Under the pieces are notes generated by a model that saw only the letters and a list, made by a program, of their open reading frames with translations, did not search any database and was not told the origin of the DNA. 16,163 nucleotides of DNA from assembly GCA_018065745.1 (NCBI GenBank), contig JAGHSS010000017.1, forward strand, positions 1 to 16,163, read 5' to 3'. The translations under genes were made by a program, and so were the position numbers. This stretch comes from Candidatus Neoflavobacterium equi. Lineage in GTDB: Bacteria > Bacteroidota > Bacteroidia > Flavobacteriales > Flavobacteriaceae. Shown here piece by piece: positions 4,090 through 11,183 of this stretch; position 1 is the stretch's first letter, and each line of letters starts with the position of its first letter.

Positions 4090-5115
4090 ATGGAAATTAA
4101 TTTAACAAGCGACACAGTAACAAAACCATCGCCAGAAATGTTGCAATTTATGCTGCGTGCAAAAGTTGGTGATGATGTTTTCAATCAAGACCCTACAGTT
4201 ATAGAATTACAAAATTCTGTGGCTAATTTGTTTGGCAAAGAAGCTGCTTTATTTTTCCCTTCTGGCACCATGGCCAACCAAACCGCAATCAAATTGCATA
4301 CCCAACCTGGGGATCAATTGATCTGTGATAAATGGTCACATGTATATTTATATGAATCTGGTGGAGCGGCCTTTCACAGTGGGGTTACCTGCGCCACAAT
4401 TGACGGATCCAGAGGAATGATCAAAGCGGTACAAATTGCAGAGCGCATAACCAATCCTGCGGCTTTTTATGAGCCTAGAACTTCATTGGTTTGTATTGAA
4501 AATACAACCAATAAAGGCGGTGGTGCGTGTTATGATATAGAAGAGTTAAAACGCATCAAAACACTTTGTGATAAAAATGGCCTTAAAATGCATTTGGACG
4601 GTGCCCGTTTATGGAATGCATTGGTAGCAAAAAGACAACATCCAAAAGTTTTTGGAGAATTGTTTGACACCATTTCTGTGTGCTTGTCAAAAGGTTTGGG
4701 AGCTCCGGTTGGATCACTATTGATTGGAGATCGTGAAACGATTCAACGTGCTGTACGCATCAGAAAAATGATGGGTGGAGGAATGAGACAAATTGGATAT
4801 TTGGCTGCTGCAGGTATTTATGCTTTGCAACACAATGTATCTCGATTAGAAGAAGACCATGTTCGTGCTAAAGAAATTGGTGCATTGTTAGCTCAATTGT
4901 ATTGGGTGGATGAAGTTGAGCCGGTGGAAACAAACATTGTGATCTTCTCTCTTAAACCAAAATATGAGGCACAATATATCATGGAAAAATTAAAGAGCAA
5001 CAACATATATATAAGTGAACTTGGAAAAAACAAATTGCGCATTGTTACGCATTTGGATTACAGACAAGTGATGCACTCTTATGTGATTGAACGTTTGAAA
5101 CGCATTGATATGTAA
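4090..5115 (+). CDS. ltaE: Low-specificity L-threonine aldolase (PLP-dependent)
   Basis: This 341-residue cytoplasmic enzyme of PLP fold type I is predicted to cleave L-threonine and L-allo-threonine to glycine and acetaldehyde. It starts with the family signature NLTSDTVTKPSPEM. It has the aromatic-stacking His84 (WSHVYLYESGG), the cofactor-binding Asp170 and Arg173 (HLDGARLWNA) and the PLP Schiff-base Lys201 (VCLSKGLGAPVGS). The length matches the usual 330-350 residues. It is monocistronic, with prfB diverging 48 bases upstream and a strong terminator downstream. A TAATATTTG stretch at 4041-4049 resembles a -7 box but has one extra base, so its promoter is not assigned. Related beta-eliminating lyases share the fold, but this active-site set fits threonine aldolase well. 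Substrate stereospecificity cannot be read from the sequence. Confidence 0.92.
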   Translation: MEINLTSDTVTKPSPEMLQFMLRAKVGDDVFNQDPTVIELQNSVANLFGKEAALFFPSGTMANQTAIKLHTQPGDQLICDKWSHVYLYESGGAAFHSGVTCATIDGSRGMIKAVQIAERITNPAAFYEPRTSLVCIENTTNKGGGACYDIEELKRIKTLCDKNGLKMHLDGARLWNALVAKRQHPKVFGELFDTISVCLSKGLGAPVGSLLIGDRETIQRAVRIRKMMGGGMRQIGYLAAAGIYALQHNVSRLEEDHVRAKEIGALLAQLYWVDEVEPVETNIVIFSLKPKYEAQYIMEKLKSNNIYISELGKNKLRIVTHLDYRQVMHSYVIERLKRIDM

Positions 5116-5136
5116 ACCATGTAAATACTACAAAAT

Positions 5137-5177
5137 AAAAAGCCCCCAAATAGAATCTTCTATTTGGGGGCTTTTTT
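5137..5177. terminator. Bidirectional intrinsic terminator after ltaE
   Basis: A perfect 19-base inverted repeat pairs 5137-5155 with 5158-5176. Its core is GCCCCCAAATAG and the formal loop is two bases, so the top pairs would open in practice. It begins 21 bases after the ltaE stop. A T-run on the right and an A-run on the left allow use on either strand. Confidence 0.93.
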
Positions 5178-5188
5178 AGGGTTGTTAT

Positions 5189-5323
5189 TTATGTTTTATT
5201 CTAGAACTGCGTTAGCGGGTGCAGCGGCATCCTTTTGGAAGGCCATGCCGACCAAAAGATAAAGCGGAACACGCGACTTTTACAAGCGTAGCGAGGTAAA
5301 AGAAACGCCAAAAAAAAACATAA
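5189..5323. repeat. Structured, GC-richer intergenic element with nested inverted repeats (probable dispersed flavobacterial repeat or small structured RNA)
   Basis: The space between the ltaE terminator and the DinB-like gene is folded like an RNA or a palindromic mobile repeat. The outermost arms are TTATGTTTT (5189-5197) and its exact complement AAAACATAA (5315-5323). Inside, GCGTT (5209-5213) can pair with AACGC (5304-5308). One hairpin pairs ATC-TTTTGG (5229-5238, one bulged C) with CCAAAAGAT (5252-5260), with a small GGC/GCC stem in its loop. A second pairs CTTTTAC (5277-5283) with GTAAAAG (5296-5302). The core 5201-5309 is about half G+C, clearly above the flanks. It has no plausible reading frame. 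The phrases GCGGCATCCTTTT and AAAAGATAAAGCGGA resemble intergenic repeats I recall from other Flavobacteriaceae, but that is memory I could not check. No second copy lies in this window. Confidence 0.6.
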
Positions 5324-5329
5324 CTAAAT

Positions 5330-5842
5330 CTATAAATATCTTTCTTTAAAAACCTGTAAATGGTGCTTTTCATGACCTATTAATATCCAACCTATGGCAG
5401 CTACATTGTAATTGAAAACACTTGCAGATCCCACTTGTGATAAAGCTTCTTGATCAAAAGATTTAAACATTTGAATTGTAGAGTGTCTTGCCATGGAATA
5501 CTCTTCTAGCAATCCTTTTAACGGTCTTGTTGAAGCCTGATTTGAAACGGTATTTGCAAAGAGATTTTCATCAAATCCCAAAAGCGTTTGAGGGTCTTTT
5601 CTGGCAATACTCAAGGCTCTGTAGGAATACACACGCTCACAATCTATCAAGTGCTGAACAATCTCTTTTATGGTCCATTTTCCTGGAGCATAACGGTAAT
5701 CAAATGCATGCATGGGAACGTCTTGTACAAAATGTATGGTTTCATGCAATGAAATTTCCAAGCTTTCCAAAAGGTTATATTCTTTGGGTACTAAATCTAG
5801 ATAAGATTGGAAATAATCTGAATATACTAATGGGATTTCCAT
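5330..5842 (-). CDS. DinB-like (DinB_2/YfiT) putative metal-dependent four-helix protein
   Basis: This 170-residue cytoplasmic protein resembles the DinB/YfiT-like superfamily. These are four-helix bundles with a His-based metal site; some members are thiol-dependent S-transferases and many are uncharacterised. Visible hallmarks are YRYAPGKWTIKEIVQHLIDCER (His64) and the C-terminal cluster GHEKHHLQVFKERYL (His157, His160, His161), a plausible metal triad. The start was set at ATG 5842, which lies one base after the dsbD stop. An open frame continues upstream to 5917, but that part is the antisense-free overlap with dsbD's 3' end and does not look like family sequence. It is the last gene of the minus-strand operon, so expression is probably coupled to dsbD. 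The biochemical activity is unknown. No separate terminator is obvious downstream apart from the structured element and the bidirectional terminator beyond it. Confidence 0.82.
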   Translation of the reverse strand: MEIPLVYSDYFQSYLDLVPKEYNLLESLEISLHETIHFVQDVPMHAFDYRYAPGKWTIKEIVQHLIDCERVYSYRALSIARKDPQTLLGFDENLFANTVSNQASTRPLKGLLEEYSMARHSTIQMFKSFDQEALSQVGSASVFNYNVAAIGWILIGHEKHHLQVFKERYL

Positions 5843-5843
5843 A

Positions 5844-7859
5844 TTATTTAAGTCCGCTTTCCAACCATGCTTTGTATGCAGAAACTTCTGGCATATACCC
5901 AACTGGCTTGTTCGCATCTACTCCATTTTCATCTAAAACAACATAGTATGGTTGGGCATTTGCCTTGTAACGGGTAATTTGAAAATCACTCCATTTGTTA
6001 CCAATAGTTTTGATGGTCTTACCAGTTTCTGAAGACACATATTTTTGGTCTTCTGGTAATTCTTTTTTGTCATCTACATAAAGTGAAATGATGACAAATT
6101 TATCTTTCAATAGATTTAAAACTTCAGGTTTTGACCAAACCATATCTTCCATACGTCTACAGTTGACACAGGCAAAACCGGTAAAATCTAATAATATCTT
6201 TTTTTGACTTGCTTTGGCAAACGCCAATCCTTTTTGGTAATCTGTAAAAACAATCAGATTGTGTGCGCCTCTTTTTGCACCTTCTGGAAGGGCTTCTTGA
6301 GTTGTAGAAACGGTTGAAACACCAAATCCATTTGGACTCTCACTGTAGGTCATTGGTGGTGGAAAACCTGATATCAATTGCAATGGCGCTCCCCAAAGTC
6401 CCGGAATCAAATACAAAGTAAATGCTGAAACTAAAAGGGCTAAATACAGTCTTCCCACTGAGATACGCTCTACTTTTGTATAGTCATGTGGCAGGTATAA
6501 TTTACCAAATAAATATAATGCCCATGCTGCAAAAATTACGATCCAAATAATCAAAAATAATTCTCTAGTCAACCAGTGTAGTTGCAGCACTAAATCTGCG
6601 TTTGACAAAAATTTAAATGCCAAAGCCAACTCCAAGAATCCAAGAGAAACTTTTACTGAATTTAACCATCCACCAGATTTTGGCAATGTATTTAACCAAC
6701 CTGGGAAAAGTGCAAACAACATAAATGGCAAGGCTAATGCAGATGAAAATCCAACCATACCTACCAAAGGCGCAATACCTCCTTTAGAAGCTGCTTGTAC
6801 TAACAGGGTACCCACAATAGGACCTGTACAAGAAAATGATACAATAGCCAAAGCTAATGCCATAAATAAAATACCGACTATACCACCACGATCCGCTTGT
6901 TTATCCACTTTGTTGGCCCAAGAATTTGGCAACATAATTTCAAAAGCTCCAAGAAATGAGGAGGCAAAAATAACGAGTATTACAAAGAATATGATATTGA
7001 AATATACATTTGTTGAAAGTGCATTTAATGCATCAGCTCCAAAAATACCTGTGACAATTAAACCTAAAACTACATAAATCACGATAATTGAAAGTCCGTA
7101 AATAATGGCATTTCGAACCCCTTGTGCCTTGGATTTACTTTGTTTTGTAAAGAAAGAAACCGTCATTGGGATCATTGGGAACACACATGGAGTCAATAAG
7201 GCTACAAATCCTGAACCAAATGCCAATAGAAAAATGGTCAACAAGCTTTTGTCATCCTCTGGCGCTTCTGTAGTTTCTACTGTTGTTTCAACATCTGTTG
7301 ATTTTGATACTGTAGTTGTATCTGCAGAAACCGTAGTCGTCGTGTCTAAGCTTGCGTTATCCTGAAGGTTTTCAGCAGTGTCCTGAGTTGTAATTGCAGA
7401 CGCAACAACTTCTGGAATTGCAAAATTAAACGTTTCATCTTGTTGAATACAAGACTCTTTGCAGACTTGATATTCCAAGCCTACTTTAATATTTTTTACT
7501 TTAGAATTGACAATTTTTACAGTCTGTCTGAACTGCGCCTGATTTTCAAATAAATATTCGTCAACCTCAAAAATGTCATTATAAACCTTTTTATATGGAG
7601 ATTCAATAGTTTTACCAACTAAGTTGTAATTTCCTTTGGATTCTTGATAGTCAAATACAGCTGGAAGGGATCCTCCATCTGGCGTAAACTGAGAAAACAT
7701 ATGCCACCCTTTGTCTATCGTAGCTTGAAAAATCAAAACAAATTCTGTGTCTGATTTCTTCTCTATAGATGTTTTCCATTTGACTGGATTTATTATCTGT
7801 GCCCAACTACTGTTGATGGTAACAGCGAATAAAAGTAAAAAAAAGAGTATTTTTTTCAT
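5844..7859 (-). CDS. dsbD: Thiol:disulfide interchange protein DsbD
   Basis: This inner-membrane reductase passes electrons from cytoplasmic thioredoxin to periplasmic thiol proteins. Its 671 residues show the three expected modules. After a signal peptide (about 1-20, ending SSWAQ) comes an N-terminal periplasmic domain with a Cys pair in QVCKESC (Cys133, Cys137). A Thr-rich linker (about 157-203) leads to a polytopic membrane domain with its redox Cys225 (LTPCVFPMIP) and Cys344 (SFSCTGPIVG). The C-terminal thioredoxin-like domain carries CVNC (564-567). All six redox cysteines are present, so the relay appears intact. The N-terminal pair is spaced CxxxC, closer than in E. coli DsbD. The ATG overlaps the tilS stop by four bases, and the DinB-like start is one base past the dsbD stop, indicating translational coupling. 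Likely clients are periplasmic disulfide isomerases or cytochrome c maturation proteins, none of which is encoded here. Confidence 0.95.
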   Translation of the reverse strand: MKKILFFLLLFAVTINSSWAQIINPVKWKTSIEKKSDTEFVLIFQATIDKGWHMFSQFTPDGGSLPAVFDYQESKGNYNLVGKTIESPYKKVYNDIFEVDEYLFENQAQFRQTVKIVNSKVKNIKVGLEYQVCKESCIQQDETFNFAIPEVVASAITTQDTAENLQDNASLDTTTTVSADTTTVSKSTDVETTVETTEAPEDDKSLLTIFLLAFGSGFVALLTPCVFPMIPMTVSFFTKQSKSKAQGVRNAIIYGLSIIVIYVVLGLIVTGIFGADALNALSTNVYFNIIFFVILVIFASSFLGAFEIMLPNSWANKVDKQADRGGIVGILFMALALAIVSFSCTGPIVGTLLVQAASKGGIAPLVGMVGFSSALALPFMLFALFPGWLNTLPKSGGWLNSVKVSLGFLELALAFKFLSNADLVLQLHWLTRELFLIIWIVIFAAWALYLFGKLYLPHDYTKVERISVGRLYLALLVSAFTLYLIPGLWGAPLQLISGFPPPMTYSESPNGFGVSTVSTTQEALPEGAKRGAHNLIVFTDYQKGLAFAKASQKKILLDFTGFACVNCRRMEDMVWSKPEVLNLLKDKFVIISLYVDDKKELPEDQKYVSSETGKTIKTIGNKWSDFQITRYKANAQPYYVVLDENGVDANKPVGYMPEVSAYKAWLESGLK

Positions 7860-9166
7860 TCTAAAACTTGTAATTTAATTGTATTAATGGTTGTATCGTT
7901 TGCTGAGAAACGAGCATCTTGCCTGTGCCCGATAACCCATATAATCTCATTATTTTGGCTTAATATCCAACAATCATCTTTCTCAAATTGTGAAAACTTT
8001 TCATCTTTGAAGTATTTTGATAATTTCTTTTTGCCGTTAAGACCTAGTGGATAAAAATAGTCAGCCGTTTGCCATTTTCTTATACACAAAGGAAACTTTA
8101 ACTTATTTTTATCAAATAAAGCAGTTTTTTTAGAAACTTGCGTGTTTTCTTCTAACACATTCGCTTTAACAGCTATAAATGGTACCCTTTCAAAATCTTC
8201 CCAACTTTCAATGACATAGGAAATCTCTGGATTTTCATCTTTTGGTCTTAAAACCAGATAATCTCTATCTTTTAATAAAATATGGGTTGGACTGCTTACC
8301 ATCTTACCGGATTGCTTGTCTTTTAATGTATAAATATCATTCCAAGCAGTAAATCCATAAGGTTTTAAAAAGGCATATAAAAAGGCTTCAGAAGCCTTAT
8401 GCTCATTTAAGGCAACAATGTGTAACTTGGTCAATTCCCTTTCTTTTGAAACTACCGTTTTTTCAATTTGTGAAATGGCGGTGTTGACCAAATCCTGAGA
8501 TTGCTTTAAATGTTGCAGTGTATCTTGAAAGACACTCAAAAATTGAGGGTTCAAATCTTTTAAAATAGGAACCACTTGATGTCTCAATTTATTTCTAAAA
8601 TATTTTGTTGAAGCATTGCTGCTGTCCTCCTTCCAAGAAATATTGTGCTGTGTAGCAAATGTCGCTATATCCTCCCTTGAAAAAGGCAATAATGGTCTGA
8701 CAATAAAACCATTTTGAACAGGGATCCCCTGCAAACCTTCCAAACCTGTCCCGCGAGTCAGGTTGATCAAAAAGGTCTCAACGACGTCATCTGCGTGATG
8801 AGCTGTCAAAACAAAATCACAATTTTGAGCCAAGCGGACTTTTTCAAACCATTCATATCTCAGTTTTCTGGCTGCAATTTGTATGGATAATTGATGGTCT
8901 GCCGCATAGGTATTGGTGTCAAAAAATATACTTTCAAAAGGAATATTTCTAGATTTTACATAATCCGATAAAAATGCTGTTTCTAGATCTGACTCTGCTC
9001 CTCTCAATTGAAAATTACAATGAGCAACGACAATGTCCAGATTCAATTCTTGAAAGAGATGCAACAAAACCATGCTGTCAACGCCTCCTGAAACCGCTAG
9101 AAGCAATTTTTTATTTAAAAGAAAAGGCAGGCTTTCTTGTATGTGATTTTTAAATGCAGTCCACAT
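7856..9166 (-). CDS. tilS: tRNA(Ile)-lysidine synthetase TilS
   Basis: TilS attaches lysine to C34 of tRNA-Ile with anticodon CAU, using ATP, so that it reads AUA and is charged with isoleucine. The 436-residue protein has the N-type ATP pyrophosphatase P-loop SGGVDS at residues 26-31 and the downstream motif VVAHCNFQLRG. LTAHHADDVVETFLINL is the conserved tRNA-modification signature, and FRNKLRHQVVPIL is also typical. The C-terminal TilS_C domain is present (about 365-436; PLGLNGKKKLSKYF, WVIGHRQDARF), so it is the long form. The stop codon overlaps the dsbD ATG as ATGA, and pabB ends 37 bases upstream. In most bacteria this gene is essential. Confidence 0.96.
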   Translation of the reverse strand: MWTAFKNHIQESLPFLLNKKLLLAVSGGVDSMVLLHLFQELNLDIVVAHCNFQLRGAESDLETAFLSDYVKSRNIPFESIFFDTNTYAADHQLSIQIAARKLRYEWFEKVRLAQNCDFVLTAHHADDVVETFLINLTRGTGLEGLQGIPVQNGFIVRPLLPFSREDIATFATQHNISWKEDSSNASTKYFRNKLRHQVVPILKDLNPQFLSVFQDTLQHLKQSQDLVNTAISQIEKTVVSKERELTKLHIVALNEHKASEAFLYAFLKPYGFTAWNDIYTLKDKQSGKMVSSPTHILLKDRDYLVLRPKDENPEISYVIESWEDFERVPFIAVKANVLEENTQVSKKTALFDKNKLKFPLCIRKWQTADYFYPLGLNGKKKLSKYFKDEKFSQFEKDDCWILSQNNEIIWVIGHRQDARFSANDTTINTIKLQVLE

Positions 9167-10526: not shown

Positions 10527-11183
10527 TTATTGTAATTTTTTTATGTATTCAGGAGTAATGACATTAAAGTCATCAATAATAACAGATGCTAAAGACAAAT
10601 CTTGTTTTTTTGTATTTGCACTAATGTATCCAACGCAGAATATACCAGCATCAAAAGCCGCTTTAATCCCATTAGTTGAATCCTCAATGACAATGCAAGC
10701 TGATTTTGGATGCATGGAAAGCGAAGCAGCATGCAAGAAAATGGCAGGGTCTGGTTTGGATTTTACAAAATCTTCCCCGCTAACCTTATGTAAAAAATAA
10801 CGATCTAAATTAAACCGCTTAAACACCCTATCAATCGTAGTTTTTGCAGCAGAGGATGCTAAAATTAAATCAAAACCTGCATCATATAACGATTTGATTA
10901 ACTGTTCTACTCCATCAATCAGATACAAGTCTTCTTTAAGATCAAAAGCCTCATAAAAAAGAGAACGCTTGCGCAAAACCATCTCCTGAACTTCAAAATC
11001 AAGCTGAAAAAGATCTTTTATTTTCTGATATACATTTTTTGTAGAGTTTCCAGTAAATGTGGAAAACAATTCTTCAGAAACAGAAATCCCCATTTCTTCA
11101 AAATGTTTGTAGTAAGCAAATTTGTGAACCGGTTCAGAATCAATGATGACGCCATCCATGTCAAATATTACAGTTTGTATCAT
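10527..11183 (-). CDS. HAD-superfamily phosphatase/phosphomutase (beta-phosphoglucomutase-like subfamily)
   Basis: This 218-residue cytoplasmic hydrolase has all four HAD motifs. Motif I is FDMDGVIIDSEP, with nucleophile Asp8 and acid/base Asp10. Motif II is the Ser in ILASSAAKT (about 110-111), motif III is Lys143 in KSKPDPAIF, and motif IV is Glu167-Asp168 in IVIEDSTNGIKAA. A helical C1-type cap sits between motifs I and II (about 16-85). Similar proteins include beta-phosphoglucomutase and sugar-phosphate or phosphoglycolate phosphatases, and the sequence does not settle the substrate. It leads the five-gene minus-strand operon, with a -7 box 24 bases upstream of its ATG. Because pabB follows, a role in removing a phosphate in folate synthesis is conceivable, but that is speculation. 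Confidence 0.9.
   Translation of the reverse strand: MIQTVIFDMDGVIIDSEPVHKFAYYKHFEEMGISVSEELFSTFTGNSTKNVYQKIKDLFQLDFEVQEMVLRKRSLFYEAFDLKEDLYLIDGVEQLIKSLYDAGFDLILASSAAKTTIDRVFKRFNLDRYFLHKVSGEDFVKSKPDPAIFLHAASLSMHPKSACIVIEDSTNGIKAAFDAGIFCVGYISANTKKQDLSLASVIIDDFNVITPEYIKKLQ

Follow-up and report, generated by a model that had tools for sequence, protein, structure and literature searches.

What is the structured element that lies between two genes at positions 5189-5323 of the window, the 16,163-nt contig JAGHSS010000017.1 of Candidatus Neoflavobacterium equi analysed here at full length? A first-pass annotation, made from the letters alone, had proposed either a dispersed palindromic repeat of the repetitive extragenic palindromic (REP) or miniature inverted-repeat transposable element (MITE) kind, or an abundant structured RNA. 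Judged by its sequence and predicted pairing, the stretch is a copy of the Rfam family Flavo-1 (RF01705), a name that the annotation did not give, in an extended form. Dispersal in many copies was borne out, REP membership was not. We consider it reasonably probable (about 0.6) that Flavo-1 is a non-autonomous mobile element that is recognised via its single-strand fold.

An Rfam scan of the window at gathering thresholds gave no match. In a relaxed scan, RF01705 matched over its full model (positions 1-76 of 76) at 5194-5282 on the + strand with 39.6 bits (E 2.8e-7 in 301 bases), and the remaining 54 matches listed were all far under their gathering scores. The window copy stays below the RF01705 cut-off of 42, and aligns over the full length of the model with the fixed phrases and the pairs of its hairpin, here called P2. 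Copy numbers are lower bounds, as the source genome is a draft assembly (2.17 Mb, 402 contigs, 83.6% complete). The Flavo-1 model found at least 115 copies in it at E <= 1e-3 (best 150 of 424 candidates scored), 81 of which reach the gathering score, and blastn with 5180-5330 found at least 40 places. Because at least 115 copies share it, the structure in the window goes beyond chance. The predicted fold of 5209-5309 also beats 200 of 200 dinucleotide shuffles (z -3.40 with RNA parameters, -3.30 with DNA parameters). On contig C9 of the same genome (L122), two copies stand inverted about 200 nt apart (1478-1578, - strand; 1778-1886, + strand).

For the architecture, all 115 copies were cut out with their flanks. 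The common unit runs GCGTTA, GNG, a purine, NN, G, N and AGCGGCATCC, followed by a stem; its 3' half continues with GATATAGCGG, A, NN, a purine, CNC, GAC, a second hairpin (P3) and AACGCC(C)AAAA. Units are 77-126 nt long (median 102). In the window, the conserved unit covers approximately 5209-5309 plus the A-rich end directly after it, and the whole element measures 100 nt from P1 to P1 (5209-5308, + strand). P1 consists of GCGTT (5209-5213) and AACGC (5304-5308, followed by the frequent C-C-A-rich 3' end), the inner pair that had been pointed out before, and three of its five pairs show changes on both sides. P1 is predicted from these pairings to close a three-way junction with P2 and P3; the Rfam model spans P2 only and leaves P1 and P3 outside. 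The P2 base, assigned from pair columns and sequence, has GCGGGTGCAGCGGCATC on its 5' side (5215-5231) and GATAAAGCGGAACACGCGA on its 3' side (5258-5276), and carries the distal hairpin TTTTGGAAGGCCATGCCGACCAAAA (5233-5257), in which the sequence is free and pairing is retained. P3 reads CTTTTAC-AAGCGTAGCGAG-GTAAAAG (5277-5302). Both hairpins of the first-pass annotation are thus present, the first with arms that are 83% complementary (5232-5243/5247-5258) and the second with exact arms (5277-5283/5296-5302). Across the family, the ends of P3 pair at 4.71 of 5 positions against 3.77 with swapped partners (86 copies with a long P3), and in 26 of the 115 copies P3 has 10 nt or less, 12 of these being CCCGGAGGG.

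The outermost arms fared differently. TTATGTTTT (5189-5197) and AAAACATAA (5315-5323) are exact reverse complements in the window, as claimed, and an inverted-repeat listing gives 88% complementarity around them (5185-5200/5312-5327). Flanks are complete in 113 copies; when the 28 nt on the upstream side are paired with the 28 nt on the downstream side, the longest exact helix averages 4.91, below the 5.10 of partner-swapped flanks, and a helix of at least 8 was found in seven copies, the window copy included. A conserved outer helix was rejected on these values; the arms are real in the window copy and not a feature of the family.

The pairing of the unit is supported by covariation. When 84 of the 115 copies were aligned with MAFFT, RNAalifold gave 16 P2 pairs, nine with changes on both sides. 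With P1 added, 98.7% of the cells of 21 pairs are paired, 12 pairs and 194 cells are changed on both sides and the covariation score is 0.315. In 500 shuffles the means were 85.6%, 6.8 pairs, 60.6 cells and 0.082, and none reached the real values; sliding by 1-3 columns gave a score of at most 0.086. The aligned copies were drawn from 106 with standard spacing and a P1 3' arm picked for pairing, which favours the P1 figures by construction, whereas the P2 base columns are anchor-fixed and free of that bias; kinship among the copies inflates all of these counts. The genome-wide search for copies with compensating stem changes, proposed earlier as a check, therefore came out positive (both-side changes in 194 cells, compared with 61 in shuffles).

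The fine structure was read in 108 of the 115 copies with standard spacing (seven were set aside). In the P2 base, short helices (in the window 5215-5217/5272-5274, 5219-5220/5269-5270, 5224-5225/5264-5265 and 5229-5231/5258-5260) alternate with purine mismatches (G.A 5218/5271, G.A 5221/5268, A.G 5223/5266 and G.A 5226/5263). The first mismatch is A.G in 53 copies and G.A in 47, so that the swap holds in 100 of 108 copies where approximately 51 are expected from the columns; read from the alignment, this exchange is a non-canonical covariation. The remaining mismatches are G.A in 107, A.G in 104 and G.A in 106 copies. The pair beside the first mismatch is T.G in 16 of 108 copies and A.C in none; therefore, the fold of the + strand is the one that is kept. 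The phrases GCGGCATCC and GAT-N-N-AGCGGA are near-invariant beside stems that vary with pairing kept, as the first-pass annotation had suspected. We infer that the fold is retained while the distal stems turn over.

The distal part also exists in distinct forms. Reading the stretches of related species by eye, we coined the names A to D for them. Type A is TAGCCCCGATAG-AGTGGAAATCC..GATTGCAACGGATAGCGGGA, type B is the form of the window copy, type C has GGAGCTC..AAAGCGGGAACGG in its distal part, and type D has AGCAAGCTACCGAAGTAGGCGGA and scores weakly with the model (20-26 bits). P1, the GNG/CNC helix and P3 are common to types B-D, so a constant base appears to carry a swappable distal module. 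In locus L331 of genome G120, a gene for a REP-associated tyrosine transposase (RAYT) is flanked at distances of about 1 kb or more by two type D-like stretches of high G+C, one on each side (2094-2280 and 5332-5521).

How far does the element reach? Flavobacterium, the genus suggested by the best protein relatives, served for comparison. Flavo-1 matches were found in 113 of its 121 scanned genomes, with at least 35 copies in 60 of these, which agrees with the first-pass annotation on similar phrases in other Flavobacteriaceae. The eight genomes without a match (G018, G020, G033, G058, G076, G084, G085 and G087) are a natural contrast set for hunting the machinery. Class-wide, 109 of 295 genomes in 54 of 155 genera had a match, 69 of them over the cut-off; 14 control genomes had none. 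Neither the phage nor the plasmid collection gave a blastn match at 1e-3 when queried with the window copy (type B) and with a single copy of type A.

Whether the copies move was approached by comparing sites. Since the source genome is too isolated (at most 74% identity among the matches listed, from 398 genomes of the genus), relatives were compared with each other instead: 200-kb syntenic blocks of G112, G094, G175 and G267, with shorter pieces of G030, G158 and G164. These 839 kb gave 27 matches at E <= 1 with the model from A1, of which 25 were used and the two weakest dropped. When orthologous gaps were scored automatically, 26 came out as filled and 32 as empty; the procedure calls too many empties, since by eye G175 does have an element at the 150592 site. 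Safe short gaps of 12-51 nt, below the length of the element, occur at four sites in eight comparisons (six distinct gaps), two of these sites being aligned. Thus, presence differs at orthologous sites, which is the general mark of a mobile element, and the proposed comparison of filled and empty sites found both. At the 130906 site, a type C copy stands in G094 and, in opposite orientation, in G112; G175 has other sequence there, and no element was seen in G030 and G158. With two species that differ in the orientation of type C and a third that has unrelated sequence, this place (L286, about 10906-11010; L221, about 8173-8295) resembles a hotspot. Copies that stand at different sites in G094 and G175 agree to 93% over 114 nt. 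Taken together, the site differences, the opposite orientations and the displaced copies at 93% identity argue for dispersal rather than for a fixed small RNA (sRNA) gene. In other genera, near-identical units were found over 118 nt at 99% (G468, where one of the copies lies at the end of a contig) and 172 nt at 98% (G446), and longer units over approximately 320 nt at 87-93% (G573 and G437). The latter, non-coding repeat (L342 3240-3558, L343 3327-3643, L344 2868-3184 and 12283-12597; two genomes) has Flavo-1 near its 3' end together with a perfect 26-nt palindrome.

The same comparisons bear on the idea that these are old, vertically inherited elements of gene 3' ends that evolve fast in place, for example by gene conversion between copies. 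The sites 33253 and 150592, common to three or four relatives with different distal stems, would fit it, whereas the opposite orientations at one site and the gaps of 12-51 nt elsewhere do not; moreover, the aldolase locus in 13 relatives holds a single Flavo-1 over the cut-off in 143 kb, and at a different site from that of the window element. We regard pure inheritance in place as very improbable.

The gene context touches on the Rfam view of an abundant structured RNA that acts from many loci in trans or as antisense or 3' RNA. The window copy lies between convergent genes, Beta_elim_lyase (4090-5115, + strand) and DinB_2 (5330-5917, - strand), and the terminator noted before is present as a terminator-like hairpin at 5137-5176 (no strand assigned) that adjoins the element without being part of it. 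With open reading frames (ORFs) of at least 90 aa called by script, the 115 copies fall into convergent (50), tandem (34) and divergent (2) gaps, called ORFs (8) and contig edges (21); divergent gaps, which hold promoters, are nearly avoided (2 of 86 classified intergenic copies). Among 371 ORFs at 112 loci around the copies no recurrent neighbour of interest was found; what recurs is a spurious frame that lies within the element, at 10 loci, and ABC-type ATPases, at 6. Of the copies in tandem gaps, 26 have the folded strand antisense to the genes and 8 do not (p 0.003). This bias, the strong compensating and non-canonical covariation, which resembles that of a selected RNA, and the grade 'probably' RNA in Table 1 of the original description (PMC2864571) speak for the RNA; the same table grades Flavo-1 as probably not cis-regulatory and probably not a riboswitch, in Bacteroidetes. 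However, the antisense bias is missing in the relatives (9 against 7), and sites are not conserved between them. No promoter-like site was found in 5050-5400 with scan models that do not cover Bacteroidetes promoters. In the available portion of a Flavobacterium psychrophilum transcriptome study, Flavo-1 matches lie indistinctly sense or antisense, many of them outside transcribed regions, with no consistent relation to these and no real clue to function (PMC9723704). An RNA acting in trans or as antisense therefore seems to us distinctly unlikely. The context bias may reflect selection in a small genome rather than an insertion mechanism. Replication strands show no bias: with the origin located by dnaA and the terminus taken to lie opposite it, 150 of 253 matches from three complete genomes split 75:75, and lagging-strand targeting was rejected on this split.

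Is the folded molecule single-stranded DNA (ssDNA) or RNA? Under DNA parameters, the minimum free energy (MFE) fold agrees with the covariation in having P1, P2 and P3, both for the window copy and for a copy from G042. Under RNA parameters, the P2 base is missing from the fold of the window copy, which retains P1, the distal stem and P3, and P1 is missing from that of the G042 copy; for one type C copy of G112, the predicted fold is absent under both. All 15 supported pairs are in the MFE fold of 45 of 106 copies with DNA parameters and of 19 with RNA parameters. The comparison does not clearly separate the two molecules. A control with tRNA (16) discriminates poorly, and identical numbers came out of several parameter sets, so that sets of one kind may not have been switched. 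P3 loops are GNA triloops in 38 of 115 copies and GNNA tetraloops in 15, and CTTCGG occurs in neither P2 nor P3. GNA loops are extra stable in DNA, and the triloops faintly hint in that direction. We lean towards ssDNA as a preference only.

Which enzyme could move it? The most obvious candidate is a RAYT (a Y1 HUH transposase), for instance of Bacteroidetes subclass 2.6 as far as described in the accessible part of PMC6006769, mobilising Flavo-1 in trans as a REP-type element. Y1_Tnp (PF01797) is present in 86 of the 121 Flavobacterium genomes, and the stretch CCCGATAG just 5' of a hairpin is common, by eye, to RAYT REPs and type A Flavo-1. Nevertheless, Y1_Tnp was not found in the source genome at its 83.6% completeness, and it does not track copy number: with up to 35 matches scored per genome, it occurs in 60 of 77 genomes rich in Flavo-1 (at least 30 matches) and in 12 of the 19 poor ones (under 10; p 0.24), 17 rich genomes being without it, in a test that enzymes since lost would escape. 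The even replication strands give the RAYT no support either. Twenty IS200-like and 20 RAYT-type loci were inspected (the latter with Rfam at 18 and the Flavo-1 model at all 20). Flavo-1 was over the cut-off in just two of the former. At the latter, the nearest copy lies 438 nt from the Y1 match (L325) and the others about 1 kb or more away, so that copies do not flank the gene, whereas in at least 15 of the 16 loci printed, inspection by eye shows the RAYT between REPs of its own that differ from Flavo-1, a linkage that serves as positive control for the flanking search. These RAYTs of approximately 184-188 aa, with REPs CCCGATAGCGCGGATTTGCAATCCGTGCCC or CCCCGCTACCGCGCGAATCCCTTCGCGTGG on both sides (L314, L315, L317-L324 and L326-L331), probably carry the 'atypical secondary structures' mentioned for subclass 2.6 in the portion of PMC6006769 available. 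CCCCGATAG occurs 12 times in the 839 kb of relatives, mostly in type A copies, and no RAYT REP was found there. Y1/RAYT as the visible partner was rejected by these searches in the source genome, the 121 genomes and the 20 + 20 loci; mobilisation by a RAYT in trans is unlikely in our judgement, with the CCCGATAG overlap as a small lead.

A retroelement in the manner of short interspersed nuclear elements would have its RNA reverse-transcribed and inserted at T-rich terminator ends, leaving an A-rich 3' end. In the source genome, a variable run of 0-10 A follows CGCC and terminator-like hairpins lie near copies on either side, and the fold is RNA-like. However, the relatives have CCCAAA and mixed A/T at the 3' end and no long A-run (by eye), and the reverse transcriptase domain RVT_1 was not found in the source genome. 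It is present in 38 of 77 rich genomes (absent from 39) and 9 of 19 poor ones (p 1.0), and 11 of 77 rich genomes have neither Y1 nor RVT_1. A link to reverse transcriptase was rejected for this absence of correlation with copy number, and we give the retroelement next to no credence.

For the mobile element recognised via its single-strand fold, a protein acting in trans would bind the single-stranded Flavo-1 fold and then insert or copy it, the unit itself being too short to code for a transposase; copies would persist mainly where harm is small, at gene 3' ends. Several observations weigh against this. No enzyme has been tied to Flavo-1 among the two families tested, Y1 and RVT_1. Three and four species have copies in common at sites 33253 and 150592, so copies can also be passed on by descent; their distal stems (and the core in G267 at 150592) are wholly different, with flanks aligning at about 75-91%. 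No insertion was resolved at base precision in the compared relatives, because these are only about 75-93% identical and the flanking intergenic DNA has turned over; no target duplication was seen in relatives too diverged to place the element ends, and most sites are compatible with gain as well as with loss. Mean pair probabilities for RNA and ssDNA are nearly equal (0.548 and 0.545), with copies split 55 to 51. Finally, the 25 elements of relatives lie without clear bias in tandem (16), convergent (5) and divergent (2) gaps or inside genes (2), and their strands do not repeat the antisense bias of the source genome.

It is tempting to go further and to regard Flavo-1 as a new class of bacterial mobile element instead of an RNA family: a three-way junction of folded ssDNA, built like a regular ladder from two-base-pair steps and purine mismatches, with a swappable distal arm (A-D), and moved across Bacteroidetes by a dedicated putative single-strand nuclease or recombinase. 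We hold this only as a tentative possibility. If Flavo-1 is indeed a mobile structured element, counts that place it among the most abundant sRNA families, as in the consulted part of a 2022 review (PMC9029176), mislead, and the question of function, open since the 2010 description as far as its available text shows (PMC2864571), becomes the testable one of which protein binds the fold. The covarying purine mismatches would be a sharp probe for such a protein, and the swappable distal arm suggests co-evolution of element subfamilies with their machinery.

Among known systems, an attC-like site was considered, and its consensus did not fit by eye. Bacterial MITEs are short, non-coding, dispersed and intergenic, as is Flavo-1. 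As for terminal inverted repeats, Flavo-1 has in P1 a 5-bp closing helix, and its outer arms are not conserved. No target duplication was seen in the diverged relatives, and no parent transposon with matching ends, nor its transposase, was found in the 112 loci around the source genome's copies. With the REPs of RAYT subclass 2.6, in the available part of their description (PMC6006769), Flavo-1 shares intergenic position, many copies and an imperfect, strand-specific single-strand fold. However, it is a three-way junction of about 100 nt against REP palindromes of 20-40 bp (PMC3733652, in part), has no GTAG or CGTC tag in its conserved columns, and occurs in a genome in which no Y1 gene was found, while the RAYTs of the genus carry other REPs. 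CGTC-tagged REPs are likewise widespread palindromic repeats without a known dedicated transposase; their stems of 8-9 bp, loops of 4-5 nt and CGTC tag, as given in the accessible text of PMC3733652, are not seen in Flavo-1. The closest relation is Flavo-1 itself. As far as its description could be consulted (PMC2864571), RF01705 has the same P2 with conserved phrases and internal mismatches, the same taxa and the same intergenic position, whereas its model has neither P1 nor P3 and scores the window copy at 39.6 against 42. In the portion of the open-licence literature covered, which excludes the supplements of PMC2864571, we found no account of Flavo-1 as mobile or of P1 and P3, and none of the unit in its larger form, of a non-canonical covariation, of modular variants or of dispersal at the level of sites. 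In summary, the family is known; new are its extended architecture, with the covarying mismatch and the modular variants, and the evidence from single sites that it disperses: what Rfam has filed as an sRNA gene is pointed to as a mobile element by the site comparisons made here.
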